NCBI GenBank assembly: GCA_937967615.1
Contig: CALCMJ010000158.1
Location: 1 to 36,899 of the forward strand
Direction of reading: 5' to 3'
Source: an uncultured Saprospiraceae bacterium
GTDB lineage: Bacteria > Bacteroidota > Bacteroidia > Chitinophagales > Saprospiraceae
DNA length: 36,899 nt
Below are positions 1,776 through 18,399 of this stretch, one piece after another. Each line of letters begins with the position of its first letter. Positions within the stretch are counted from its first letter, which is position 1. Below the pieces are notes generated by a model. That model ran no database searches. It was not told where the DNA came from and saw nothing but the letters and a program-made list of their open reading frames with translations. Both the position numbers and the translations under genes were made by a program.

Positions 1776-2300
1776 ATGAACAAGAAGCTCTATTTTTTAG
1801 CAATAATCCCGCCGGACGAAATATCTGCTGAACTCACGAGCTTTAAGAAAGAGGCCAAAAATTTATATTCTTCTAGCCATGCTTTGAATTCTCCTCCACA
1901 TGTAACCCTAGTGCCACCTTTCTGGATGGGTCATATCCTAGAGGCCAAATTGCGAAAATCTATTCAAGAATTGAACATGAATAAGCTTGAATTTGAAGTC
2001 CACTTAAATGGATTTAATTATTTCGAACCAAACGTTTTGTTTGTAAATATTGAAGAATCTAATAGTCTATTGAAGTGCCATGAGTCAGCAAAACAATGTG
2101 TAGAAATCATAATAGAAGAACCTATTAAAATGAATCATCCATTTCATCCACATATTACAGTTGCTTTCAAAGATTTAAGTCCCGCTCTTTTAAAGGATGC
2201 ATTTTTGCACTTTAAAGAAAAAGCTTTTTATAGCCAATTTGCTTTTGAAAATATCAGACTTCTTAGCTACAATGATAACGCTTGGGAAATTATTCAATGA
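1776..2300 (+). CDS. 2H phosphoesterase / 2'-5' RNA ligase (LigT-like) family protein
   Basis: A 174-residue protein of the 2H phosphoesterase superfamily, which acts on 2',3'-cyclic or 2'-5' phosphodiester bonds in RNA or nucleotides. Both catalytic HxT motifs are visible: HVTL at residues 42-45 and HITV at 126-129. The spacing and total length are normal for single-domain members. There is no signal peptide, so it should be cytosolic. The opening segment (LYFLAIIPPDE) is the usual first strand of the family. Its stop lies 11 bases from the stop of the nucleotidyltransferase operon on the other strand, so the two sets converge. The substrate cannot be deduced. Related enzymes degrade 2'-5' oligoadenylates or cyclic phosphates, which makes the neighbouring nucleotidyltransferases interesting but does not prove a link. 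Confidence 0.85.
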   Translation: MNKKLYFLAIIPPDEISAELTSFKKEAKNLYSSSHALNSPPHVTLVPPFWMGHILEAKLRKSIQELNMNKLEFEVHLNGFNYFEPNVLFVNIEESNSLLKCHESAKQCVEIIIEEPIKMNHPFHPHITVAFKDLSPALLKDAFLHFKEKAFYSQFAFENIRLLSYNDNAWEIIQ

Positions 2301-2311
2301 ACTGAATATGT

Positions 2312-3061
2312 TTAAACTGTATTATTTTGAATGTAGATTATACAGTTGACAAGCACGGCTAAATCTAAACTACTAATTCGTTCAGAGTTTGGAGGGAAGA
2401 TTGGGCTAAATGCTTTTTTATACTTATAGAATTTATTCAATTCTGGAGCGAATTCAGTTAAGTGCTTTTCAATTAATGCTTGGAAATCTTTGTGGTCTAC
2501 AAGCCCTTCATAAGATTTCCAACTATCTACACTGCTGGATTCAAATTCTTTGAAATGTAAATATCGGCGTACAATAGCATCTATGTTAGCAACAAAATCA
2601 GTCATAGATCTTCCTAGAAATAATTTTGTTTGAGCTTGGATAAATTCTTTGCGATGAGAGATGATTTCTTGGTGCGATGGCATTTGACTGTTTTCAATTA
2701 TCTTTTTGATGCCTTCAAAGACTAGACTTTTTTTAAGACAAATGCCATGAATACACATGTTTAAATACATTTGGTGGCCTTGCATCATTTGACTAAGATA
2801 ATTTGAAACAGTATTGAAACTAAGAGCGATTTGTTGATTAGAACTTTCCTGTAATTCTGCGCATAAAGTTTTTACTTTTTGAAGCAAATTCATGTCAGAA
2901 TAATCTAGTAATAGCATGATATCTATATCGCTATTTTTATTTGCAGTTTGTGTTGCTACGCTTCCATATAAAATAAACGACTTAATATTTTGACTGGCCA
3001 GTTCGTCTATTTTTTTACTTAACTCTTGAGCAACTGCAGTTTTTATTTTTGATTCTTCCAT
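2312..3061 (-). CDS. Nucleotidyltransferase-fold protein (array member 4, last)
   Basis: A 249-residue protein with an N-terminal minimal nucleotidyltransferase (pol beta-like) domain. GS is at 33-34 and SDID at 44-47, so two metal-binding aspartates (D45, D47) are present. The following strands show no clear third acidic residue; a serine/asparagine segment (SFNTV) occupies that place. A GICLKKSLVFEGIK segment is shared with its three upstream paralogues. The C-terminal half (about 130-249) is predicted helical and lacks a motif I can name. It differs from its siblings in having Q where they have G in GSxxxG[TS]A. It is the last gene of a four-gene minus-strand operon, 7 bases after the gene at 3069. 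There is no signal peptide. The product it makes or the target it modifies is unknown. Confidence 0.75.
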   Translation of the reverse strand: MEESKIKTAVAQELSKKIDELASQNIKSFILYGSVATQTANKNSDIDIMLLLDYSDMNLLQKVKTLCAELQESSNQQIALSFNTVSNYLSQMMQGHQMYLNMCIHGICLKKSLVFEGIKKIIENSQMPSHQEIISHRKEFIQAQTKLFLGRSMTDFVANIDAIVRRYLHFKEFESSSVDSWKSYEGLVDHKDFQALIEKHLTEFAPELNKFYKYKKAFSPIFPPNSERISSLDLAVLVNCIIYIQNNTV

Positions 3062-3068
3062 ATTCCAG

Positions 3069-3854
3069 TTAATCTTGAACAGATTTTTGGCTATCCTTAT
3101 TTATAAATTCGATACATTCTAAGAGTTCAATAAAATTACATGGGGGTAAAGTGTCTAAAACATCTAAGTCAAAGCCTAATGGTTTGACTTCGTCACTAAG
3201 TTTAAAGAATGCAATTACACTATTTGAATATTGAGGGAGGAATTTTTTAATCGTAGGCGCATAAGCTTCTCTTTGAATGACAGTTTGGTATTCTTCCCAA
3301 CTGTCAAGGCTCATTGATTGAACTAACTTTAAATCTAAGTATTTGAGAATTGTTATGCGTATTCCCGTACATAGCTTAACCAGGGATCCTAAAAATAAGT
3401 CTTGTACGCGCATATGGGTATCTGTTGCATTCTTAATAATCAGTTCTTTTTTTGAGGGTAATGAATTTGCGCTAACAATTGATTTAAAGCCTTCAAAAAT
3501 ATTACTATTCAAAAGACACTTTCCTTTGAGTACAATGTGCATGTGGTAGTGGTTTCCTTCAGTTATTTCTTTTAAGAATTCAGAAACTACCTTAACATTA
3601 ATAGTGATGTGAATTAAAGTTCTGTTTTGATATTCCAAAATCCTTTCCCTTAATTTAGTCATGAATTTTCTCTCAGTAAAATCAACGAGAAGCATTATGT
3701 CTATGTCACTCTGTGCATTGGCCGTTCCCAAGATTGTTGATCCGTAAATAATAAAAGCTTGAGCAGGGTGGGGGCTAAGTTCCTCCATATGATTGCATAT
3801 TTTTTGTGCAATTGCAAATCTTTTTTTGCTTTCATCATTCATGTATAATTTCAT
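3069..3854 (-). CDS. Nucleotidyltransferase-fold protein (array member 3)
   Basis: A 261-residue paralogue with the same two-part build. FIIYGST and SDIDI give GS at 38-39 and aspartates at 50 and 52, followed by the strand TINVKVV where an acidic third ligand would be expected. The segment GKCLLNSNIFEGFK corresponds to the common GICLL-S-F-GLK signature. The C-terminal helical half contains a SLDSWEEY stretch similar to VDSWKSY in member 4, so members 3 and 4 are probably each other's closest relatives. The start used overlaps the upstream gene by 20 bases. A second ATG four codons later (MNDESK) would cut this to 8 bases and is equally plausible. The overlap suggests translational coupling. 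The function is unknown beyond the fold. Confidence 0.75.
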   Translation of the reverse strand: MKLYMNDESKKRFAIAQKICNHMEELSPHPAQAFIIYGSTILGTANAQSDIDIMLLVDFTERKFMTKLRERILEYQNRTLIHITINVKVVSEFLKEITEGNHYHMHIVLKGKCLLNSNIFEGFKSIVSANSLPSKKELIIKNATDTHMRVQDLFLGSLVKLCTGIRITILKYLDLKLVQSMSLDSWEEYQTVIQREAYAPTIKKFLPQYSNSVIAFFKLSDEVKPLGFDLDVLDTLPPCNFIELLECIEFINKDSQKSVQD

Positions 3855-4587
3855 TTGTATTTTGAAGAATAATGTTTAGAATTTTAAGTATGTCGATTAA
3901 ACTGAATTCAGAGCTTGCGCTTAAATTGTAAGAATTGTTTTTAAAGTTTTCAATATTCGCAATACTAATATTAAATGCACTTATAGACTTTGGTAAGTGT
4001 AGTTCTCTGGAAGCTTGAGTTTTACTGAATAATTCAAGGTATTGAAGAATTGGGTTTTTTTGTAAAAATTGAAGTTTTATAAAGTCATCTAACAAATTTT
4101 CAAATTCAGCAATAAATTCAGGCATTACAGTTTTAAGAATAGCAGCTGATCTAATTTGAATACCTTGAGAATGGACTTTTTCTAGTGAAGCTTGAATTGG
4201 TTTTGGAGATGCTTTTAGAAAATGCTTTAATCCTTTAAATACAGTGCTATTCAATTGACAAATCCCATCAGCCAAAATAAAAAAATATAGAGGCTCTTTT
4301 CTTATCAAGTTTTCCAAAAATTGAGTTACTGTCTTGATGTTTATTGCAATTTCTAGATTATATTTTTGTTCAAATACGTTTTTGACCTTTTCCAAATGAG
4401 ATACAAATTGGTTCGTGGTGACATTTACTAATATTTGAATGTCAAGATCACTTTGTTCCGTTGCTGTTCCTTGAGCAGTAGAGCCATAGACGATAAAGCA
4501 TTGCAAAGTTGACTTTTCAAATTTCTGCACTACCAAGAGAATTTGATTTGCAATTTTAATTCTGTTTATAGAATGCACCGTACTCAT
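3835..4587 (-). CDS. Nucleotidyltransferase-fold protein (array member 2)
   Basis: A 250-residue paralogue. The motif FIVYGSTAQGTATEQSDLDI places GS at 35-36 and aspartates at 47 and 49. The next strand reads AINIKTV, again with Asn/Lys rather than Asp/Glu. The signature GICQLNSTVFKGLK is kept. The C-terminal half is the most divergent of the four and is rich in Asn, Lys and Phe. Its start overlaps the stop of the gene at 4584 by four bases (ATGA type), and its end overlaps the next gene, so all four are likely made from one transcript. It has no signal peptide or membrane segment. It could be active, or a regulatory subunit of a hetero-oligomer; the sequence does not decide. Confidence 0.75.
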   Translation of the reverse strand: MSTVHSINRIKIANQILLVVQKFEKSTLQCFIVYGSTAQGTATEQSDLDIQILVNVTTNQFVSHLEKVKNVFEQKYNLEIAINIKTVTQFLENLIRKEPLYFFILADGICQLNSTVFKGLKHFLKASPKPIQASLEKVHSQGIQIRSAAILKTVMPEFIAEFENLLDDFIKLQFLQKNPILQYLELFSKTQASRELHLPKSISAFNISIANIENFKNNSYNLSASSEFSLIDILKILNIILQNTNEIIHE

Positions 4588-5351
4588 TTCAATTCACTTG
4601 TTTTCTTTAATATGTGACGCATGCATTTTAAAAGCTCAATTAAATTGAAACCATGCTCAGCATTTAGTGTTTGCGAAATGGTATTTATATTTTTATTGTA
4701 ACTCAAAAAATTATCAAGACAGTTGCTGTAATTTGGAAGAAGTTCATTAATAGTTGGCATATGTTTAGAAGAACGTTGAATGGAAATCTCTTGCTCTTCC
4801 CAAGTTCGATATTCATTTTCTAGCACTTTTTTAAAAGCGAGAAACTGGAATACACTCAAACTACAATCACTGTTAAAGTTTATTAGCCTTTGTGTGAAAA
4901 GTTCTTCAGACCAATTTTGGACTTCTTTTCTCACTTTATCTTCTATGACAGCTCTTTTGGGAAGTTTTTTTGTGTGTACTAAACTCTTTAAGTTCTTAAA
5001 CATTGAACTCTCTAAAAGACAGATTCCATTTAAAAACATCAAGACATGAAAGCTGTCTCCTTGCACTAATTCTTCAATAACGAAAGAAGGTGTTTTAACA
5101 TTTACAACGATCTTGACACCACTTTTTTGTTGGATTTCCCTAAGTATTAGTTCAGTTTTACTTTGCAGAAGTACGCTTGGATTGTCTGAGATGATCTGGA
5201 TATCAATATCACTTGTCTTTTTTGCTGAACCTATGGCAACTGAACCATAGACTATAAATGCTTGGATCGTCTTGGGGTAAGCAGAAACTAATCTGTGACA
5301 AAGTGCTTTTGCCAAATTAAGACGAATGGATGTGTGTTCATGAGTTTCCAA
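4584..5351 (-). CDS. Nucleotidyltransferase-fold protein (array member 1, first)
   Basis: A 255-residue first gene of the four-gene operon. FIVYGSVAIGSAKKTSDIDI gives GS at 36-37 and aspartates at 48 and 50. The following strand is VVNVKTP, and the shared signature is GICLLESSMFKNLK. The C-terminal half is helical and carries LPNYSNCLDNFL, matching LPQYSNSVIAFF in member 3. This shows that homology extends through the whole protein, not only the catalytic fold. The promoter must lie in 5352-5481, shared with the divergent gene at 5482; I see no perfect TAnnTTTG on this strand. Kanamycin-type and HEPN-linked MNT enzymes share the N-terminal motif, but no HEPN RxxxxH motif is evident here, so a toxin-antitoxin role is not supported. 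Confidence 0.75.
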   Translation of the reverse strand: METHEHTSIRLNLAKALCHRLVSAYPKTIQAFIVYGSVAIGSAKKTSDIDIQIISDNPSVLLQSKTELILREIQQKSGVKIVVNVKTPSFVIEELVQGDSFHVLMFLNGICLLESSMFKNLKSLVHTKKLPKRAVIEDKVRKEVQNWSEELFTQRLINFNSDCSLSVFQFLAFKKVLENEYRTWEEQEISIQRSSKHMPTINELLPNYSNCLDNFLSYNKNINTISQTLNAEHGFNLIELLKCMRHILKKTSELK

Positions 5352-5481: not shown

Positions 5482-5943
5482 GTGAATTCAAAATTAATCA
5501 TAGAGCTTGTCTGGATAGTATTTACAGTGATTTTCTGTATACTTATACTCTTACCTATATATGGTAGTTTAGGTAGAGACTATCCCTTTTACCTTGAAAA
5601 CATTATATTCATAATAGCGAGTGTAACTTTTATTCGTTACATTTTCTTACTTAAGTATCATTGGATAGCAAATACCACTAAACCCAAAATTGCGCTTATA
5701 TTCCTGTCTATTCCTATAATTATGTACATGGTTGATAATATCTATGACTTTCAGGCATTTTTGGATGAACAAGGACTATATACTATTCTTGATAAACTTT
5801 CAGTAGAAAAGCAAAGGTCTTTAGGATCATATATTAAAACTCAAATGATATTTTTCTGGACAGCAGCGGTAATATCCTCTGTGCTGCTACCCATTAGAAT
5901 GATTATTTCACTTTGGAGACAGCGAAACCGAGGAACAGTTTAA
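5482..5943 (+). CDS. Small four-helix membrane protein, unknown function
   Basis: A 153-residue hydrophobic protein. Four likely transmembrane segments lie at about residues 5-27, 36-56, 66-84 and 118-141, with short loops between them. No conserved catalytic motif was recognised. The start codon is GTG; the first in-frame ATG lies far downstream, so GTG is the better choice. It ends one base before the start of the GT39-like glycosyltransferase and is almost certainly co-transcribed and co-translated with it. This suggests an accessory role in the same membrane glycosylation step, for example subunit or lipid-carrier handling. That role is inferred from position only. Confidence 0.65.
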   Translation: MNSKLIIELVWIVFTVIFCILILLPIYGSLGRDYPFYLENIIFIIASVTFIRYIFLLKYHWIANTTKPKIALIFLSIPIIMYMVDNIYDFQAFLDEQGLYTILDKLSVEKQRSLGSYIKTQMIFFWTAAVISSVLLPIRMIISLWRQRNRGTV

Positions 5944-5944
5944 G

Positions 5945-7417
5945 ATGGATAGCAAAATAAAATACTTGCTCTATTCACTGTATGCATTGCTTATCTACTT
6001 TACACTATTTCATCATATAGGAAGACATCCAATAAAAACTTGGGATGAATCTCTGTTTGCGTGTAGAGCATTATACATGGCAGATAATAATGCCTATATG
6101 CCTAACTTCAATGTACTGGATAAAGTCTTACCAGATCATAGAAACACAAAACCACCCTTTAGCACTTGGATACAAGCAGCGTCATTTAAAATTTTTGGAC
6201 TTAGCGAACAGGCACTCAGAATTCCTATGGGGATTATACTCATCTTATGCTTTTTATATACTATTAATTTTTCGAGGAGGCAGTTCCATGAACCAATGTA
6301 TGGGATACTCTTGTCAATAATATTATTAACTAGTGTTGGCTTCATGCGAGATCATATGGCAAGATTTGGTGACCAAGATGTGGCGTTCGCAGCATATAGT
6401 TTTTTATCTATTCTCTTTTTTTATTTGTTCTGCGAATATGATAAATTGAAGGATCTAGCTCTATTTACCTTTTTTTCTATTGCGGCATTACTTACGAAGA
6501 ATTTACTAAGTCTAGTCTTAATACCTGGTTTTATATTGTACGCTCTGTATAAGAAAAAGTTACTTATGCTGTTAAGGCGAAGCTCAACCTATGTTGCTGC
6601 ATTTGCATTATTAGCCTCTTATATTTTTACTATTCTATTTCTGGAAAATGCCTACCCAGGTTTTTTTGAACGAATGTGGGACTATGAATTATTTGGACGA
6701 TACAATAAAACGATAGAAGGTCATTCAGGAGGCTTCTTCTATGTTTTAGATATATATTTTTCAGATTATTATTCACCGTGGTTTGTATTTGCTTGGACAA
6801 TACCTTTTATATTTTTTAATAAAGAAAACAGCAAGAAGAAAAAAGATTTGGCTGTTTGCATGCTACTGTGCTACCTTTCCTACTTTGTAATCGTGTCGTT
6901 GTCTAGTACAAAAACTGCATGGTATTTTGCGCCACTCTACATGATAAGTTCCTATCTAATTGCCATGGGGATGGTAAACATCTATCACATGTTACGCAGC
7001 TTAAATCAAGAAGATTCAGGTTTGAAATACACAATGCTAATTATGTTCATTTTTCTTACTGCGTATGCATTTTATAATGTGCTAAACAAAGTTTCTTATA
7101 ATCCAGAATCGGAAGTTAAAGATGAACAATATGTACTCTTCCTTGAGCATGTTGAAAGAACTAAGCCGAGTCTAAAACAATTCTCTATTATTGATAATAA
7201 CTTTGGTGCTAGCCCATATTTCTATTCTCAAATGTTTAATAGGAATAAAGATTATGAGATCACAGTGAAAAGAGGGGGAGATAGAGATAAAGGGGAAATC
7301 GTAATGGTATGTCTTAATAATGCCATGAATCCAATTAAGCGTAGATACCATGTTAACATGATAGATTCTTTTAAGTATTGTCGATTAATGGAAATTGGTG
7401 AAGAAAAGAAAGAGTAG
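5945..7417 (+). CDS. GT39/ArnT-like polytopic glycosyltransferase
   Basis: A 490-residue inner-membrane protein of the GT-C fold. It should transfer a sugar from a polyprenyl-phosphate donor to a lipid or protein on the periplasmic side. The first periplasmic loop has the hallmark acidic pair in KTWDES (D34, E35) and, further on, NTKPPFSTW (residues 68-75), both typical of the dolichyl-phosphate-mannose protein mannosyltransferase / ArnT family. About ten or more hydrophobic segments follow, then a soluble C-terminal tail of about 110 residues. It directly follows the small membrane protein at 5482 and converges with the polytopic protein at 7420 (2 bp gap). The acceptor, whether lipid A, lipoprotein or surface glycan, cannot be told from sequence. 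Confidence 0.8.
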   Translation: MDSKIKYLLYSLYALLIYFTLFHHIGRHPIKTWDESLFACRALYMADNNAYMPNFNVLDKVLPDHRNTKPPFSTWIQAASFKIFGLSEQALRIPMGIILILCFLYTINFSRRQFHEPMYGILLSIILLTSVGFMRDHMARFGDQDVAFAAYSFLSILFFYLFCEYDKLKDLALFTFFSIAALLTKNLLSLVLIPGFILYALYKKKLLMLLRRSSTYVAAFALLASYIFTILFLENAYPGFFERMWDYELFGRYNKTIEGHSGGFFYVLDIYFSDYYSPWFVFAWTIPFIFFNKENSKKKKDLAVCMLLCYLSYFVIVSLSSTKTAWYFAPLYMISSYLIAMGMVNIYHMLRSLNQEDSGLKYTMLIMFIFLTAYAFYNVLNKVSYNPESEVKDEQYVLFLEHVERTKPSLKQFSIIDNNFGASPYFYSQMFNRNKDYEITVKRGGDRDKGEIVMVCLNNAMNPIKRRYHVNMIDSFKYCRLMEIGEEKKE

Positions 7418-7419
7418 AG

Positions 7420-8853
7420 TTAATCTTTCCAAGGGACTTTATCAACTCTCGAGTACTTTTGTTTAGGTAAATTAAAATACTTAGGATTAAGACCTACGTT
7501 TTGGTAAAATGCTAACATGTCATATTCACGTTCTAAGAATTCCTCTACCTTCTTTCCATCATAATCCACAAAAATAGAAGCATTTTCCATAGTCTTATCC
7601 AATGCAGATAGCATAATTGTCTCGTGAGGAAATTCGTAAGGATACCATAATTTATCCCAATCAAATCTATCAAGTTTTACCAAGGTTTTACTACTTCCTT
7701 TTTCTAACTGAGATGTCATTAATTCCTTTTGTAAAATGTGTCTTTGTTTGAAGAAAGTATGTTTAGAGAAAATTTGGGCGTAACATAAGATGATAAGTGT
7801 ACTTAACATTATAAGACTTAGCTTCTTTGACTTGTTCAATTCTATGGCTTTAATAATTGCTAGTCCCCATATCATACCTAACATAGCAATGTACCCATCT
7901 ATCATTATATATAGATCAGCTCTTAAATAGGAATGCGATAGAATGATTAAAATGATTAACCCAGTCGTAGCTGTCAATAATAAGCTGACGGATAGGAGTT
8001 TCAAATGTCGTATTAGTAATAGAAGAGCAACTATAAAACCTATGAGGGCAATGCTGATATGATTAAATGCATAATCTTGAATAATAGTAAAAACATAATA
8101 ATCTTTTGTATTGGAAAAAACAACTGGAAAGTCCTGGATTAAATTCACTTTATTACTTTCATATCCATCATCCATAACATTTTTGAATCTCAAAAAGAAA
8201 GTAAATAAGACCATTCCGATATGGCCGTAATTCCAAAAATCCAGCCATCTGTTTTTATCAATTACGTTGTACGAGAGCATTGCTAACAGAGGTACAATTA
8301 TTACTGGATGGATAATATAGAGCCAAGCGCAAAAGATAAATACAATGCAAGTTGATATCCATTGATTGTGCCATGAAATTTTATTTTTTTCGATGGAAAT
8401 CCAATTGAATAATGTTGTGCCAACCGCTATAGCAAATGTTATTTCTGTATGACCAGCGTAAAACTTATATCGCATGGTCAGAATTAAAGCCAGAACAAGT
8501 AGAATTCCTCCTTTTGCTGTTTTAAAAACATAAACGTTTATTAGGAATAATAAATAGAACCATATCCCAAAAATCAAGGAATAAGAAGACATTACTGTCT
8601 TTAAGGAAGCGCCCATTTTAATTAACAAGAGGGGCAGCCACTGGGTAAAATAACTAATATGCCTGTTATGTTTGACAAAGACCTCTTCAAAGTTGATCAT
8701 ATGAAAGGTGTAGTACGCTGCATCACTGTTAATAAGCCTTTCTTTATAGAAAATTATAGTGAAAAGGATATATACAACAAAGCTTAGATGGCCTAATAAA
8801 ATTAAGCTTCTATCCATGCTTTTAGAGTATATGTCTTGTTCAATAATTTTCAT
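7420..8853 (-). CDS. Polytopic membrane protein, possible GT-C glycosyltransferase
   Basis: A 477-residue protein with roughly ten transmembrane segments from residue 17 to about 365 and a soluble C-terminal region. Just after the first membrane helix it has NSDAAYY (D44), which resembles the acidic residue of the first extracytoplasmic loop in GT-C enzymes. A weak HTEIT segment lies between later helices. There is no clear family motif beyond that, so the glycosyltransferase reading is inference supported by neighbours: a GT39-like enzyme convergent at 2 bp and a divergent flippase-like gene 69 bp away. It could also be an O-antigen polymerase-like or other membrane protein. Confidence 0.6.
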   Translation of the reverse strand: MKIIEQDIYSKSMDRSLILLGHLSFVVYILFTIIFYKERLINSDAAYYTFHMINFEEVFVKHNRHISYFTQWLPLLLIKMGASLKTVMSSYSLIFGIWFYLLFLINVYVFKTAKGGILLVLALILTMRYKFYAGHTEITFAIAVGTTLFNWISIEKNKISWHNQWISTCIVFIFCAWLYIIHPVIIVPLLAMLSYNVIDKNRWLDFWNYGHIGMVLFTFFLRFKNVMDDGYESNKVNLIQDFPVVFSNTKDYYVFTIIQDYAFNHISIALIGFIVALLLLIRHLKLLSVSLLLTATTGLIILIILSHSYLRADLYIMIDGYIAMLGMIWGLAIIKAIELNKSKKLSLIMLSTLIILCYAQIFSKHTFFKQRHILQKELMTSQLEKGSSKTLVKLDRFDWDKLWYPYEFPHETIMLSALDKTMENASIFVDYDGKKVEEFLEREYDMLAFYQNVGLNPKYFNLPKQKYSRVDKVPWKD

Positions 8854-12525: not shown

Positions 12526-13275
12526 ATGTCTCAAAGGTTTTACATTATCTTAGTATTCGTTGTGTTTACTTGTATGGGTCTTCACTCGCAGTGTTTTCCA
12601 GATCGTCACAACACTAGTCCTGATGAAGCGTGGTTATCATGTCTTCCTAGCACAAGTCCAAATCCAGAAAGAGGAGTATCCCATTGGATCATGTATGACT
12701 TAAGTCAAATTCAAGAGTTAGGTGAAACCATATTTTGGAATTATAATACTCCGGGAAATCTATCTAATGGAATACAAGAACTTACTTTGGATATATCAGT
12801 AGATGGTTTGAATTGGGAAAATGCTGGAAGTTTTACCCTAGACGAACCCGTTGGGACATCGTTTTATGAAGGTGATGTGGGGCCTGACCTAAGTGGCTCA
12901 AGTGCAAGATTTATTTTACTTACTGCGCTATCCAACTATGGTGGAGATTGTTTTGGTTTAGCTGAAATTAAAATAGGTGTTGGAGATTTAGTATCAAATA
13001 TTGCAGAGGAAGAAATTGATAAGCTTTCATTAAAAGTTTCTCCAAACCCAGCACGTGATTTTATTCAGTTAGATATAGGTAGCAATTCAGAAGTTGAGTG
13101 CATTTTAACGATTACAAATAGTTTAGGGCAGCAAATGTTAACAAAAGAAAGGAAGATTCCTAGTAGTTCTTTCAGGGAATATATAGATATTAGTGTATTC
13201 GTTTCAGGGGTATACCTAATATCCATTCAGAATAGTACAAGCATTTCCACCATTGAATTGATTATTACAAAATGA
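12526..13275 (+). CDS. Secreted discoidin-like protein with T9SS type A sorting domain
   Basis: A 249-residue protein from the ATG at 12526. A GTG seven codons earlier is possible but spoils the signal peptide, which here runs to about residue 21 (LHSQ). Residues about 22-155 form a beta-sandwich resembling F5/8-type C (discoidin) domains: CFPDRHN, a SHWIMYDL strand, WNYN, DISVDGLNWENAG, then CFGLAEIKI. Such domains usually bind glycans or lipids. Residues about 170-249 are a T9SS sorting domain with VSPNPARDF and GVYLISI. It opens the DUF1800/DUF1501 cluster and is translationally coupled to the next gene (ATGA overlap). A close paralogue without the T9SS tail lies at 18426. Ligand and function are unknown. 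Confidence 0.8.
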   Translation: MSQRFYIILVFVVFTCMGLHSQCFPDRHNTSPDEAWLSCLPSTSPNPERGVSHWIMYDLSQIQELGETIFWNYNTPGNLSNGIQELTLDISVDGLNWENAGSFTLDEPVGTSFYEGDVGPDLSGSSARFILLTALSNYGGDCFGLAEIKIGVGDLVSNIAEEEIDKLSLKVSPNPARDFIQLDIGSNSEVECILTITNSLGQQMLTKERKIPSSSFREYIDISVFVSGVYLISIQNSTSISTIELIITK

Positions 13276-15080
13276 GAAACATGAGAATAATATGTTGCTT
13301 TTTACTTGCTCTTTTGGGATTGCAACTCAATTCGCAGATTTATACTGACTATTTGGGAGCAGGTCATTCAGAAGGAATGACAGTGACTTCGAGTGACGAA
13401 TCTGCCAATGGCGGGTCCATAAATACTGTAAATGGTGTAGGATTAGATGCAAAAATGTTTGAAGCTTCCCGGTTTATAGCACAAGCTTCTTTTGGAGGAT
13501 CAAAAGTAGAAATTGAAGACTTAGCTCTTACACTCGATTTTGAAGCTTGGATTGATGAACAATTTGCATTGCCTCAAACGGATTTTTTATTGACTACAGA
13601 AGAAGTTTGGGATACGGTTTTGTTTCACAGACTTGCAAATGGTTATGACCCAGCGGATGTTTCTGTTCATGGGCCCAATCATGTAGTATGGAATTACAGC
13701 TGGTGGCAGGCTCTGATGGATGGCGATGACCAATTAAGACAAAAAGTAGCGTATGCCTTAAGCCAAATTCTTGTAATTTCTAATGAATCTGATTTAAGAG
13801 CATATGGTTTTGCAGTTGCATCGTACTACGACCTCTTAATGGATAATGCTTTTGGAAATTTTGAGGATCTACTCTTAGACGTGACACTTAGTGTGCCGAT
13901 GGGCTTTTATCTAAGTCACCTCAATAACCCGAAAGAGGACCTAGAAGAAAACATTCATCCAGACCAAAATTACGCTAGAGAGATTATGCAATTGTTTACA
14001 ATAGGTCTCTATGAGTTGAACAATGACGGAAGTAGAAAAAAGGATGGCAATGGCGACGATATACCTACTTATGACAATAGTGACATTGTAGAACTTGCAA
14101 ATGTCTTTACTGGTTTGGGACCAGGAGGAATCATGGATTTTGTTACATGGACAGATGTTCCACAATTTGGGATGAATATATACGGTATAGACAAGACGAT
14201 TCCAATGGTGATGTATGAGAACTTTCATGAAACTAAAGAGAAAGTGATTTTTGGAGGTGATTTAACTATACCAGCGAATCAAGCAGGAATGACTGACATT
14301 GAACAAACCGTGAATTATTTATTTAATCATGCGAATACGGGTCCTTTTATCAGCAGATTTTTAATACAGCGTTTGATTAAATCAAATCCAACTCCAGGCT
14401 ACATATCACGAGTTGCTGATGTTTTTAATAATGATGGGAACGGAGTAAGAGGAGATATGAAGGCAGTTATTAAAGCAATTTTGCTAGATGAAGAGGCGAG
14501 AGAATGCGCTCCAATGCAAGATGAATTTGCACCAAGATTACGGGAACCTGTGACTAAATATGTACATATTTCAAAAGCGCTTGCCTTAAATAGTCCTTTT
14601 GGTAGATATTGGAACAGTAGTATTAGTTTCTTAGATAATACTAAACAGATGACTTTATACGCACCAACGGTCTTTAACTTTTACTTACCTGATTATCATC
14701 CAGTAGGCTTATTGTCAGATAATGATTATAACGCACCGGAATTTTTCATACATAATACTTCTACAGCGACAGGATATATTAATCAGGTTTACACTTGGAC
14801 TATCTGGGATAACTACTTGTATAGTTGGGAAGATGCCTATGGGGATATTGATGTGGACCTTATAACAGATGAGTTACATCCCTTCGCATATGAACCAGAA
14901 AAGTTAATAAACGAATTAGATATTAGATATACACATGGTCAATTAACGGATGAAACCAGATCGATTTTAAGGACTGCTATTGAAGGCGTTCCACTATCAT
15001 GGTCAGATGTTGAATGGAAGAGGACTCGTTTAGCCCTCTATTTGTTGTTTATTTCACCAGACTATAACATAATGCGTTAG
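13272..15080 (+). CDS. DUF1800 family secreted protein (paralogue 1)
   Basis: A 602-residue protein with a Sec signal peptide ending near residue 22 (NSQ). A short N-terminal motif follows (GAGHSEGMTVTSS), shared with the two paralogues. Then come the DUF1800 blocks: FEASRFIAQASFG, LRQKVAYALSQILV, HPDQNYARE (229-237) leading into IMQLFTIGLYELN, VFTGLG, and LRQ/R-rich C-terminal helices ending NIMR. There is no T9SS tail or membrane helix, so a periplasmic or otherwise secreted location is likely. The DUF1800 family has no established reaction and is commonly encoded next to DUF1501 proteins, as here. The start codon overlaps the stop of the discoidin-like gene by four bases, strong evidence for a shared transcript. 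Confidence 0.88.
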   Translation: MRNMRIICCFLLALLGLQLNSQIYTDYLGAGHSEGMTVTSSDESANGGSINTVNGVGLDAKMFEASRFIAQASFGGSKVEIEDLALTLDFEAWIDEQFALPQTDFLLTTEEVWDTVLFHRLANGYDPADVSVHGPNHVVWNYSWWQALMDGDDQLRQKVAYALSQILVISNESDLRAYGFAVASYYDLLMDNAFGNFEDLLLDVTLSVPMGFYLSHLNNPKEDLEENIHPDQNYAREIMQLFTIGLYELNNDGSRKKDGNGDDIPTYDNSDIVELANVFTGLGPGGIMDFVTWTDVPQFGMNIYGIDKTIPMVMYENFHETKEKVIFGGDLTIPANQAGMTDIEQTVNYLFNHANTGPFISRFLIQRLIKSNPTPGYISRVADVFNNDGNGVRGDMKAVIKAILLDEEARECAPMQDEFAPRLREPVTKYVHISKALALNSPFGRYWNSSISFLDNTKQMTLYAPTVFNFYLPDYHPVGLLSDNDYNAPEFFIHNTSTATGYINQVYTWTIWDNYLYSWEDAYGDIDVDLITDELHPFAYEPEKLINELDIRYTHGQLTDETRSILRTAIEGVPLSWSDVEWKRTRLALYLLFISPDYNIMR

Positions 15081-15093
15081 AAAAAAACAAAAA

Positions 15094-15121
15094 GAAAGAA
15101 TACGTTAAATTCAATTCTTTC
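15094..15121. other. Intergenic hairpin between DUF1800 genes 1 and 2
   Basis: Perfect 8-bp stem GAAAGAAT (15094-15101) / ATTCTTTC (15114-15121) with a 12-base loop, 14 bases after the stop of the first DUF1800 gene. No T-run follows, so it is more likely an RNA-processing or stability hairpin than a full terminator. Confidence 0.4.
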
Positions 15122-15202
15122 AGGGTATCTACTGATAAAAGAGTGCCTTAAACTTTTTATTTTGTGAGACATTCTTGCAAACTCAGACTAAAAGACATCT
15201 AT

Positions 15203-16981
15203 ATGAGAAAATTATTCACCCTATTTTTCTGTTTTATACTAAGCTTGTGCAATGCGCAGATTTATACAGATTATATTGGCGCAGGTCATTCAGATGGTAT
15301 AATAGTTACTTCAAGTAACGAGTCTGGAGGCGGATCTGCTCAAAGCACAGTTGATGGAGTAGGGATGCAAGCAGATTTGTTTGAGGCGTCTCGTTTTTTA
15401 GCGCAATCAACATTTGGTTATACAAAAGCAGAAATCGAAGCTCTTGCAGTAGATTTAAATTTTGAAGGATGGATAGATACAGAATTTACTAAGCCCCAAA
15501 CAGAGTACTACAATAAGGTGCAGGATATCTGGGCTGAAATTCTTCAGCTAAAACAAGATGCAGGAGAAGATATCACAGATATATTTGGCCCTTATGCACT
15601 CCATTTCAATTATACTTGGTGGCAGAATGTGATGGATGGTGATGATCAATTGAGGCAACGTGTCGCGTATGCCTTAAGCCAGATTCTTGTTGTCTCAAAT
15701 GAATCAGACATAAGAGACCACGCTGAGTCAAGCACTTCATATTATGATGTTTTAATGTCGCACGCATTTGGAAACTATCAAGATTTACTATTGGATGTAA
15801 CCCTCTCCGTTACTATGGGTTATTATTTGAGTCATTTAGACAACCCAAAAGAAGACTTAACTGAAAATATACATCCAGATCAGAATTATGCAAGAGAAAT
15901 TATGCAATTGTTTTCCATTGGTTTATATGAATTAAACTTGGATGGAACAAGGAAGAAAGATGGAGACGGCAATGATATACCTACTTATGACCAAGAAGAT
16001 ATTGTAGAAATGGCCAATGTATTTACTGGTTTAGGAGCGGGTGGAATTGAGGACTATGTAGACTGGACTACAGAGCCATATTTTGGCATCGGTTTTTGGT
16101 CTGCAAGTAAAACTGAGCCTATGGTCATGTATGAAGACTTTCACGAAACTAAGGAGAAAGTTCTTTTGAAGGATGTCACGCTTCCAGCAAATCAACCAGG
16201 GATGCTTGATATTGAACAGGCTGTAGAATATTTATTTAACCATGAGAATACAGGCCCATTTGTTTCTTATCGTTTAATTCAAAGGCTTGTAAAGTCAAAT
16301 CCAACGCCAGCATATGTAGAAAGAGTTGCAACCGTGTTTAATAATAATGGTTCAGGGGTAAGAGGAGATATGAAGGCAATTATTAAGGCTATCCTTTTGG
16401 ATGCGGAAGCAAGAGAATGTGCACCTATGCAAGATGATTTTGCACCAAGGTTACGCGAGCCTGTTCTTAAGTATACACAGCTCGCTAAAGGATATGATAC
16501 AGAAAGCCCATTTGGGAGGTATTGGAATAATGGATACAATTATAATGAAGAAGCAAAACAAGCACCCTTATGGTCTCCTTCTGTTTTTAACTTTTACCTA
16601 CCTGATCATTTTCCAGTAGGCCTGTTATCCGGAAATGGATTAGCTGCTCCAGAGTTTAAATTACATAATACACAAACAGCGACAGGTTACATAAACTCTG
16701 CGAATTTGTGGACAATTTGGGATAACCTAATGTATAGTTGGGAAGGGAATTATGGAGATGTGAATATAAAATTGTTAACTGGTGATTTAGAAAGTATTGC
16801 AGACGAGCCTGAAAAGCTAATTAATGAAATAGACATCAGAATGACCCACGGTCAAATGACTGATGAAACTAGAACAATAATCAGAGATGCTATTACTCCA
16901 ATAACATGGAATAACTGGGAAAGGACCCGATTAGCTATGTACTTGACATTAATTTCTCCGGACTATAACATAATGAAATAA
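15203..16981 (+). CDS. DUF1800 family secreted protein (paralogue 2)
   Basis: A 592-residue protein from the ATG at 15203. An upstream GTG at 15164 would place 13 charged residues ahead of a good signal peptide (MRKLFTLFFCFILSLCNAQ), so I prefer the ATG. The mature N-terminus repeats IYTDYIGAGHSDGI, nearly the same as paralogue 1. All DUF1800 blocks are present: FEASRFLAQSTFG, LRQRVAYALSQILVVS, HPDQNYARE from about residue 224, and VFTGLGAGGIEDY. The protein ends NIMK. It is the closest relative of paralogue 1 and probably arose by tandem duplication. The DUF1501 gene follows 20 bases later. The reaction is unknown. Confidence 0.87.
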   Translation: MRKLFTLFFCFILSLCNAQIYTDYIGAGHSDGIIVTSSNESGGGSAQSTVDGVGMQADLFEASRFLAQSTFGYTKAEIEALAVDLNFEGWIDTEFTKPQTEYYNKVQDIWAEILQLKQDAGEDITDIFGPYALHFNYTWWQNVMDGDDQLRQRVAYALSQILVVSNESDIRDHAESSTSYYDVLMSHAFGNYQDLLLDVTLSVTMGYYLSHLDNPKEDLTENIHPDQNYAREIMQLFSIGLYELNLDGTRKKDGDGNDIPTYDQEDIVEMANVFTGLGAGGIEDYVDWTTEPYFGIGFWSASKTEPMVMYEDFHETKEKVLLKDVTLPANQPGMLDIEQAVEYLFNHENTGPFVSYRLIQRLVKSNPTPAYVERVATVFNNNGSGVRGDMKAIIKAILLDAEARECAPMQDDFAPRLREPVLKYTQLAKGYDTESPFGRYWNNGYNYNEEAKQAPLWSPSVFNFYLPDHFPVGLLSGNGLAAPEFKLHNTQTATGYINSANLWTIWDNLMYSWEGNYGDVNIKLLTGDLESIADEPEKLINEIDIRMTHGQMTDETRTIIRDAITPITWNNWERTRLAMYLTLISPDYNIMK

Positions 16982-17001
16982 GCATCCATAAAAAGAAAGA
17001 T

Positions 17002-18399
17002 ATGAACGAAATGAATAATTTAGGAAGAAGAAAATTTATTAAGCAAACAAGTTGCGCAGCTATAGGTACAACAACTTTGTTTAGTACTTTGGTTAACTTA
17101 AAAACGATGAATGCTGCAGCCATTTCCAACTCTGCTGTTTTTGGAGGTGGAGGTTATAAGGCACTCGTTTGTATTTATATGGGTGGAGGAAACGATTCCT
17201 ATAATATGCTTATGCCAAAGCAAGATAATAATGAATATAATATCTACGCTACTTCTAGGTCAAATCAGGCAATACCACAAGCTGATATCCTTGCACTAGA
17301 TGGATCTAATTATGGAATCCATCCCATGTTGCCAAATATCCAAGGGATGTATAATGATGGGGATGTTGCATTTGTGTCAAATGTAGGCACACTCATTGAA
17401 CCTGTAGATCAGGCATCATATTATGATGGAAGTGCAGCTCTACCCTTAGGCTTATATTCTCACGCAGATCAATCGCAACAATGGCAAACGTCTGTGCCAC
17501 ACGATAGAACTGCAGTAGGATGGGGAGGAAAGATTGCAGATCTCATGCAGTCACAAAATACAAATCAGGATATCTCATTGAATATTTCTTTGGCTGGGAA
17601 TAACGTCTATCAGACAGGAAACGATACTTCTGAATTTACAGTACACCCAACCAATGGAGCTATCCTTATTAATGGTTATGGAGGTTCAGGTACATTCAGT
17701 GGCTTGCGAACACAAGCAATTGATGATATGATTGAAGCAAATTATCAGGATTTGTTCAAGAAAACTTACATGGATATTGTGAAGGTTTCTAGAGACGCAA
17801 ATATTCAATATGCGGACGCAATAGATAATGTAACTTTGAATACGGTATTCTCAGATAACCCTCTAAGTACACGTCTGGAATTAGTAGCAAAAACTATAGC
17901 AGCTAGAGATACCCTGGGAATGACAAGACAGATTTTCTTTGTAGACTTTGGATCATGGGATCATCATGATGAATTACTTAATTCACAAGCAGAGCAATTT
18001 GATTGGATGAATTTTGGACTAAAAGAATTTAGAGATGCGTTGAATGAATTGACCGTTTTCGATTGTGTGACAACATTTTCTCTATCTGAATTTTCAAGAA
18101 CCTTAAGTTCAAACGGAAATGGAACTGATCATGCTTGGGGCGGAAATGTATTCCTTATGGGTGGTGAAGTTATAGGTGGAAATATTTATGGCAATTATCC
18201 AAATTTAGAACTAGGTTCAACTATTGATGTAGGAGGTGGCGTCCTGATACCTGAAGTATCATGCGATGAATATTTTGCTGAGCTATCAAGGTGGTTTGGC
18301 GTTACGCCAAGTGAATTATCAACCATATTCCCAAACATTGGAAATTTCTATGATGTAAATTCTAGTGCAAACCCAATTGGATTTTTACCATTTGTATAA
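17002..18399 (+). CDS. DUF1501 family protein with twin-arginine signal
   Basis: A 465-residue protein. The N-terminus LGRRKFIK (R9-R10), followed by an alanine/threonine-rich hydrophobic stretch to about residue 42, is a twin-arginine signal, so it is likely exported folded. The DUF1501 family is related to the sulfatase/alkaline phosphatase superfamily. Characteristic blocks are visible: YMGGGNDSYNML (60-70), the FGSWDHHDE segment (316-324, with D320, H321 and H322) and GTDHAWGG (374-381). These Asp/His clusters may be a metal site, suggesting hydrolase-like chemistry, but no activity is established for the family. It lies 20 bases after DUF1800 paralogue 2 and 26 bases before a discoidin-like gene. 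The DUF1800-DUF1501 pairing is recurrent in bacteria. Confidence 0.88.
   Translation: MNEMNNLGRRKFIKQTSCAAIGTTTLFSTLVNLKTMNAAAISNSAVFGGGGYKALVCIYMGGGNDSYNMLMPKQDNNEYNIYATSRSNQAIPQADILALDGSNYGIHPMLPNIQGMYNDGDVAFVSNVGTLIEPVDQASYYDGSAALPLGLYSHADQSQQWQTSVPHDRTAVGWGGKIADLMQSQNTNQDISLNISLAGNNVYQTGNDTSEFTVHPTNGAILINGYGGSGTFSGLRTQAIDDMIEANYQDLFKKTYMDIVKVSRDANIQYADAIDNVTLNTVFSDNPLSTRLELVAKTIAARDTLGMTRQIFFVDFGSWDHHDELLNSQAEQFDWMNFGLKEFRDALNELTVFDCVTTFSLSEFSRTLSSNGNGTDHAWGGNVFLMGGEVIGGNIYGNYPNLELGSTIDVGGGVLIPEVSCDEYFAELSRWFGVTPSELSTIFPNIGNFYDVNSSANPIGFLPFV

Follow-up and report, generated by a model that had tools for sequence, protein, structure and literature searches.

We analysed a 36,899-nucleotide contig, CALCMJ010000158.1 (the window), from an uncultured Saprospiraceae bacterium (assembly GCA_937967615.1; 3.79 Mb, 83% complete). 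It carries four consecutive genes for nucleotidyltransferase-like proteins on the reverse strand. Gene 1 (4584..5351), the first of the series, starts with TTG and encodes a 255-residue protein with a nucleotidyltransferase (NTase) domain and a helical C-terminal half. The same architecture is found in gene 2 (3835..4587, 250 residues), gene 3 (3069..3854, 261 residues; the protein modelled with AlphaFold2) and gene 4 (2312..3061, 249 residues). The initial annotation of this DNA had described four full-length paralogues with overlapping or near-abutting ends, and this description stands: genes 1 and 2 overlap by 4 bp and genes 2 and 3 by 20 bp, and 7 bp separate genes 3 and 4. The gene 4 protein, used as a query on its own genome, finds the other three with E values of 1.9e-34, 6.8e-23 and 1.0e-15. 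A fifth, weak match of the same query lies on contig C98 (E 0.008). The four genes share one apparent operon, and their products are probably made together. Promoter and terminator scans gave nothing above shuffles.

All four window proteins match the Pfam model of the polymerase-beta nucleotidyltransferase superfamily, NTP_transf_2, above its curated cut-off (24.7-32.1 bits vs 21). GS and SDxD had been said to be kept in every copy; indeed, the metal/NTP (nucleoside triphosphate)-binding motif GSX10DXD was located by motif search on the reverse strand at 5202..5246 in gene 1, 4441..4485 in gene 2, 3699..3743 in gene 3 and 2921..2965 in gene 4. When the orthologues from a second species (locus L014, below) are included, the motif is exact in 8/8 proteins, with GS and both Asp of DxD invariant. 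D39, D41 and D71 bind the second Mg2+ of MntA (PMC7641770). The initial annotation had noted that the operon proteins lack a third acidic ligand. It was right about the absence and wrong about the place, which is two residues before the Asn/Ser to which it pointed. We set this column by profile-profile alignment with acid-bearing groups of minimal nucleotidyltransferases (MNT; V-D-L and I-D-V types), as the residue right after a conserved Ile, and checked it by mafft and profile-profile comparison; a profile-HMM (hidden Markov model) alignment is blank there in 34 of 63 rows. The residues are Val, Ala, Thr and Ala in genes 1 to 4, or V/M, A/A, T/T and A/A as orthologue pairs; thus, the third metal-binding acid is absent in 8/8 proteins. 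A Glu lies two positions ahead of this column in the gene 2 protein and in its L014 counterpart.

The same column was read in 63 non-archaeal relatives aligned by mafft, which are search hits and not a fair sample, L083 and L084 showing no difference in the stretch printed: D or E occupies it in 31, another residue in 30, and 2 are gapped. Eight of the 30 non-acidic rows carry an acid two residues earlier, where the mafft register is uncertain by two residues. Since the third acid is missing from 30/63 relatives too, its absence is not decisive for membership of the NTP_transf_2 superfamily. At the canonical place, the loss is real yet common, with gene 2 keeping a possible substitute. When four hand-picked MNT subgroups were compared with the operon family, the highest score (E 1.5e-18 vs 3.8e-14 to 3.1e-12) went to the one whose third-acid column holds mostly Ser, also Thr or Asn, although it is the largest and most diverse of the four and hence favoured in scoring. 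At 7/10 loci of this subgroup, a gene next to the MNT gene has a Pfam HEPN match (E 1e-13 to 1e-21); among the others, the neighbour at L067 has no such match, L061 has no neighbour within the limits of the script, and the script did not resolve L083. From these sequences, a kind of HEPN-MNT pair that does without the canonical third acid seems to be common. At L026, L032, L037, L052, L057, L073 and L076, PF05168 HEPN genes adjoin genes for MNT proteins whose third-ligand column holds Ser or Thr.

A second copy of the operon is present at L014 (CALIAU010000002.1, uncultured Saprospiraceae bacterium), which belongs to the same genus. It holds four 1:1 orthologues in the same order, at 5713-6480, 6477-7229, 7216-7995 and 8001-8750 for genes 1 to 4, with all frames open and no stops. 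Identities to the window are 161/255, 143/250, 177/259 and 162/249 in the same order (57-68%). The window paralogues are far less alike: 20-28% identity to the gene 4 protein in the multiple alignment, and 24-30% for all pairs in pairwise alignment. By this measure of 24-30% vs 57-68%, the split of the paralogues predates that of the species. All four genes are found in both of the two genomes sampled from the genus, and the suggestion of the initial annotation that four diverged copies are retained was borne out by a gene-order survey of relatives, which found the order kept in L014 without stops or decay. The ratio of nonsynonymous (dN) to synonymous (dS) change points in the same direction; dN is 0.22-0.34 across the operon, and the two genes for which dS could be computed have dN of 0.28 and 0.34 vs dS of 2.0 and 1.4, with dS saturated in the remaining pair. 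The array of four genes is thus genuine and ancient, with every copy intact, and it is under selection. Decay of the copies was considered and is ruled out by the intact second operon; stop codons inside two of the matches to operon genes are the genes' own last codons.

Conservation is not uniform along the proteins. The C-terminal halves had been called similar among the paralogues, and they are less alike than claimed: 13-27% identical (mean 19.8%), against 24-34% (mean 31.5%) for the N-terminal halves. Between the two species, the N- and C-terminal halves are 66/61% identical in gene 1, 68/49% in gene 2, 60/75% in gene 3 and 70/61% in gene 4; thus, the C-terminal half is most conserved in gene 3 and least in gene 2. 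This half-by-half constraint differs among the copies (heterogeneity Q = 17.0, p = 0.0007), in a comparison of one species pair with the cut placed after residue 117 of the gene 3 protein, as picked from the alignment by the author. The unequal constraint suggests copies with different roles, such as non-equivalent subunits would have, and is no proof of a complex.

The surroundings of the operon are also kept in the second species: genes for a hydrophobic protein and a PMT_2-type, glycosyltransferase-like protein flank it on one side, and genes for a LigT-like and a secreted protein on the opposite side. Four neighbouring genes are identical at 91/174, 323/487, 113/153 and 331/477 positions between the window and L014, similar values to those of the operon, which is therefore evolving at an ordinary rate. 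The hydrophobic protein (5482..5943, forward strand; 5126-5587 in L014) has 153 residues and is probably a membrane protein; its gene, oriented divergently to the operon, is widespread in the family (38/60 relatives). The LigT-like gene, a 2'-5' RNA ligase-type phosphoesterase (1776..2300, forward strand; Pfam 2_5_RNA_ligase2, E 2.8e-20; 8747-9286 in L014), adjoins the operon in both species, and other genera carry such a gene without the operon (18/60 relatives). In the window, 11 bp lie between its end and the last gene of the operon, and in L014 the two genes share 4 bp; as they are convergent, joint transcription is not implied. We regard both genes as context only. Elsewhere in the window, two direct repeat copies (1-154 and 187-321, 84% identical) occupy positions 1-321 at the contig edge, with no further match elsewhere in the same assembly, and positions 13272-18399 hold a gene with a Por secretion tail, then two tandem DUF1800 genes and a DUF1501 gene.

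We searched for the operon family in family, phylum and class samples, which overlap in part so that their counts are not additive, and scored at most six initial candidates per genome, so that a low-ranking distant relative may escape. The 8-sequence profile matches 20/398 family genomes at E <= 1e-4, at full length only in the two genus members, the others ending by model position 115. It also matches 38/395 phylum genomes, and a wider profile that includes archaeal relatives matches 18/395 class genomes; in both, the match is of full length only in the window's own genome. Genus members aside, the three samples gave matches to the MNT domain only, and the phylum and class matches that extend past about position 120 hold in-frame stops. 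A scan of genome contigs seeded by two short peptide patterns returned 17 loci, of which L014 matches at full length, L018 to residue 167 and the others to residue 134 at most. No relative was found in viral contigs with one paralogue as query; the 8-row alignment found two MNT-domain matches there, L083 and L084, and at L083 the MNT gene is followed by an open reading frame that looks HEPN-like by eye. A PHROGs search gave weak matches only. No "empty site" turned up: in the other genera with matches to both flanking genes, these are on different draft contigs, and two of the eight regions retrieved were read. In the samples searched, these sequences place the operon in one genus only. The initial annotation knew of no named system with this four-gene layout, and none was found in our literature searches, which covered open-licence papers.

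The initial annotation had also proposed structure prediction and a structural search, which were carried out for the gene 3 protein and succeeded for its N-terminal half. The AlphaFold2 model, made from 8 sequences, has a mean pLDDT (predicted local distance difference test) of 84.5 and a pTM (predicted template modelling score) of 0.54; given this pTM, the arrangement of the domains is uncertain. Residues 6-131 match ANT(4')/kanamycin nucleotidyltransferase (Z 11.5, 117 aligned, 3.5 Å), and residues 7-117 match the MNT antitoxin 8xeo (Z 10.5, 100 aligned, 3.0 Å). AadA (Z 10.8) and HalB (Z 9.7 over 84 residues) also match, rows within 1 Z being taken as tied. A match to 3c18 over most of the protein (Z 10.0, 182 aligned) was not used, as its root-mean-square deviation is 17.5 Å. 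Modelled alone, the C-terminal half is nearly all helical (pLDDT 84.7, pTM 0.69). Beyond the NTase core, the eight proteins share invariant G, C, S, F, K and P residues and a late I, among them the G, C, S, F and K of a GICLL-S-F-GLK signature noticed earlier; the invariant G presumably marks the usual end of an MNT domain. An Rx4-6H ribonuclease (RNase) motif is found in 0/4 window proteins, and the one match among the eight lies inside the NTase motif of L014 6477-7229. A separate HEPN gene was also sought, and no Pfam HEPN match was obtained among the 14 other window proteins scanned (the four neighbours and ten more).

The initial annotation had noted this lack of an HEPN motif and concluded that the system was not HEPN-MNT. 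The observation is correct and the conclusion does not follow, as fused HEPN domains are usually motif-less and the best-scoring full-length relatives are archaeal MNT-HEPN fusions. When 66 loci were re-searched with the family profile, three Woesearchaeota proteins (L015, L017 and L023) scored best and matched farthest, over profile positions 9-158, 8-222 and 7-220 (E 2e-14 to 6e-17). In profile-profile comparison, the operon and archaeal families align with Prob 98.6 and E 1.1e-15 over 132 columns, that is, the NTase domain and the next helix. The C-terminal half of the archaeal fusion is HEPN by profile (E 1.9e-8; score 52.6 vs a maximum of 19.2 in 100 column shuffles). This family of about 270 residues occurs in 147/148 sampled genomes of one phylum, mostly with two matches (loci L113-L146), and in the rows listed this second copy is often part of a longer frame (about 550-660 residues). 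One such second copy (L116 961-2874, 637 residues) has two NTase domains by eye. An MNT domain fused to HEPN in a house-keeping context was described from DPANN archaea in 2019 (cluster cls.004259/NEQ050; PMC6393860), and the Woesearchaeota fusion is probably this cluster.

Another type of relative is bacterial. L018 7971-8672 and L022 7986-8687 encode 233-residue NTase-like proteins that are 47% identical, have DxN in place of DxD and share the invariant F and K of the operon proteins. They have no significant match and no family name in Pfam (best NTP_transf_2, E 0.028), and no PDB relative of this type was found. A reverse search of 296 phylum genomes with this type returned only the window's gene 4 and no further member. 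The gene order around them is common to two unrelated-looking records, in which, by eye, they are flanked by a secreted protein with a glycine-rich tail and by a LemA-like protein.

We propose, tentatively and with less than even confidence, that the operon encodes a genus-restricted two-domain family of MNT-HEPN type, domesticated and kept as a four-part set, in which the helical half would probably be a former HEPN domain and not an RNase. Its position and existing precedent make HEPN ancestry of this half plausible. According to Anantharaman et al. (PMC3710099), an HEPN domain in fusion with MNT typically lacks the RNase residues and serves as a substrate-binding or regulatory half; for this reason, a tamed MNT-HEPN is preferred here over the exclusion of HEPN. 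In the mechanism we envisage, one ancestral gene would have been duplicated before the split of the two sampled species, and its four products would then have become non-equivalent, perhaps within a single complex. The N-terminal domains would bind Mg-NTP through GSX10DXD. The helical halves would pair the subunits and present the substrate, in a substrate- or partner-binding role. As none of the four proteins has the usual third metal ligand, transfer of a nucleoside monophosphate (NMP), if any, would be weak or would use a base supplied from elsewhere.

Several observations weigh against this proposal. The model of the C-terminal half finds no fold in the PDB (Foldseek best E 3.0; VIA best Z 3.8), though HEPN and KNTase_C chains are absent from these match lists and neither fold is thereby excluded. 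At E <= 0.1, Pfam gives no HEPN, KNTase_C or AadA-type match in 8/8 proteins. Compared with the HEPN profile, the C-terminal half of the operon family scores 14.9, inside 100 shuffles (max 17.2); compared with the archaeal C-terminal half, it scores 21.7 over 18 columns, narrowly over 100 column shuffles (max 19.0), and a slightly shorter cut gives 21.5 vs a shuffle maximum of 17.8. By analogy with MntA, the loss of the equivalent of D71 would argue for low activity. The bacterial 233-residue type also competes with the archaeal fusions: a BLASTP alignment of the L018 protein with the gene 4 protein covers residues 17-167 at 26% identity, beyond the NTase domain, and a two-row profile of L018 and L022 matches the operon family with E 2e-6 over 147 columns. 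Their C-terminal half alone scores 12.2, under the shuffle maximum of 16.1. As the match runs beyond the NTase domain, the archaeal fusions are not the sole candidates for closest kin, and on this evidence our confidence, already short of even, was lowered slightly. Finally, only two species with the operon are known.

Other explanations deserve attention. The size of about 250 residues and the two-part layout are also those of ANT(4') and AadA, the best structural matches of the N-terminal half, with which the operon proteins could share a function. Four independent small-molecule NTases (ANT(4')/AadA/Lnu-like) would act alone or as homodimers, each adenylylating its own substrate, be it an antibiotic, a sugar or a metabolite, with the helical half as the pocket. 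Tandem duplication followed by divergence suits such substrate diversification, as does the greater divergence of the C-terminal halves between the paralogues. However, the curated NCBIfam models of aminoglycoside and lincosamide NTases (ANT, Lnu) stay far under their cut-off (best 21.6 bits vs 350), a gene order kept in both species is unnecessary for separate enzymes, and the third acid is gone from every protein. At that place, AadA uses E87 (5lpa is listed as an E87Q mutant). We consider independent enzymes rather unlikely. The missing acid also fits a catalytically dead pseudo-nucleotidyltransferase, and inactive proteins of the NTase fold exist in eukaryotes (NF45/NF90; human OASL lacks synthetase activity). 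The four proteins would then be a scaffold for a regulatory or NTP/RNA-sensing complex without transfer chemistry. Yet 8/8 proteins keep GS and the two Asp of DxD unchanged, which is unexpected for a dead enzyme, MNT proteins lacking the third acid are frequent in the set of relatives, where an HEPN gene often accompanies them, and gene 2 keeps its nearby Glu; this scaffold appears to us equally improbable. A further reading is a hetero-oligomeric nucleotidyltransferase in which four incomplete MNT-type subunits would share active sites across their interfaces and act on one substrate, gene 3 contributing a mainly helical part and gene 2, the only copy with an acid near the third-ligand place, a mainly catalytic one. 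This arrangement is unlikely, a shade more so than the two just discussed.

A role in defence comes to mind with the best PADLOC match of each protein, which is to the candidates PDC-S09 and PDC-M05A (E 2e-11 to 2e-8); PDC-M05 is described as a nucleotidyltransferase with an HEPN-domain protein whose antiviral role is unconfirmed (PMC12988326). On this view, several genes would make up a module akin to HEPN-MNT (type VII), either toxin-antitoxin or anti-phage, in which one product is the toxin and the rest are modifiers. The PADLOC matches are, however, confined to the NTase domain, the proteins have no HEPN RNase motif and the 14 other window proteins scanned no Pfam HEPN match. No mobile-element setting was noticed in the part examined, and the same neighbours flank the operon in both genus genomes, all of which makes such a module quite improbable. 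That the copies are selectively neutral leftovers of tandem duplication would agree with their presence in one genus only in the samples searched, but the paralogues diverged before the species did, eight frames are open, dN is far under dS where computable, and the intact L014 operon contradicts it; we give this idea very little credence.

If the four proteins assemble, they would make a bacterial nucleotidyltransferase built of four non-equivalent paralogues, and would offer a test of the idea put forward in PMC3710099 that HEPN-MNT modules have been tamed into substrate-modifying enzymes. If they do not assemble, the operon would be an orderly case of lineage-specific expansion. In either case, it adds to the MNT-type proteins without the usual third metal ligand.

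Among known systems, measured against curated models, the operon proteins belong to none of HEPN-MNT toxin-antitoxin, ANT/AadA, HalB or CD-NTase. HepT/MntA (type VII HEPN-MNT) has the identical GSX10DXD spacing, and its MNT fold matches with Z 8-10; it differs in consisting of two separate proteins, and with the NCBIfam MntA model the operon proteins reach 24.4-32.8 bits vs a cut-off of 60. MntA has D71 as the third Mg ligand, HepT has the motif RX4HXY, and the two form a hetero-octamer, which is a precedent for an oligomer (PMC7641770). ANT(4')/kanamycin nucleotidyltransferase and AadA have the NTase domain and helical half of the operon proteins at the same size; the operon proteins differ from them in a C-terminal half that is not recognised and in the missing third acid. 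Hailong HalB shares the NTase domain; its NCBIfam model, with a cut-off of 190 bits, matches 2/4 proteins at 17.3 and 18.8 bits, and curated CBASS CD-NTase cyclase models reach at most 13.9 bits vs 200, in one of the four proteins. The 233-residue bacterial proteins at L018 and L022 have a two-part layout like that of the operon proteins, with a C-terminal half that is not measurably related and not recognised as HEPN. The archaeal fusion forms no tandem of four, is present in 147/148 genomes of its phylum against one genus for the operon, and has conserved C-terminal blocks (LDLYWAVIDxAHAALM and FYxxSKxIxHRE) that are missing from the operon proteins. Like them, it has the same domain order and size, the GSx..DxD motif and, in the three rows compared, no acid at the third column.

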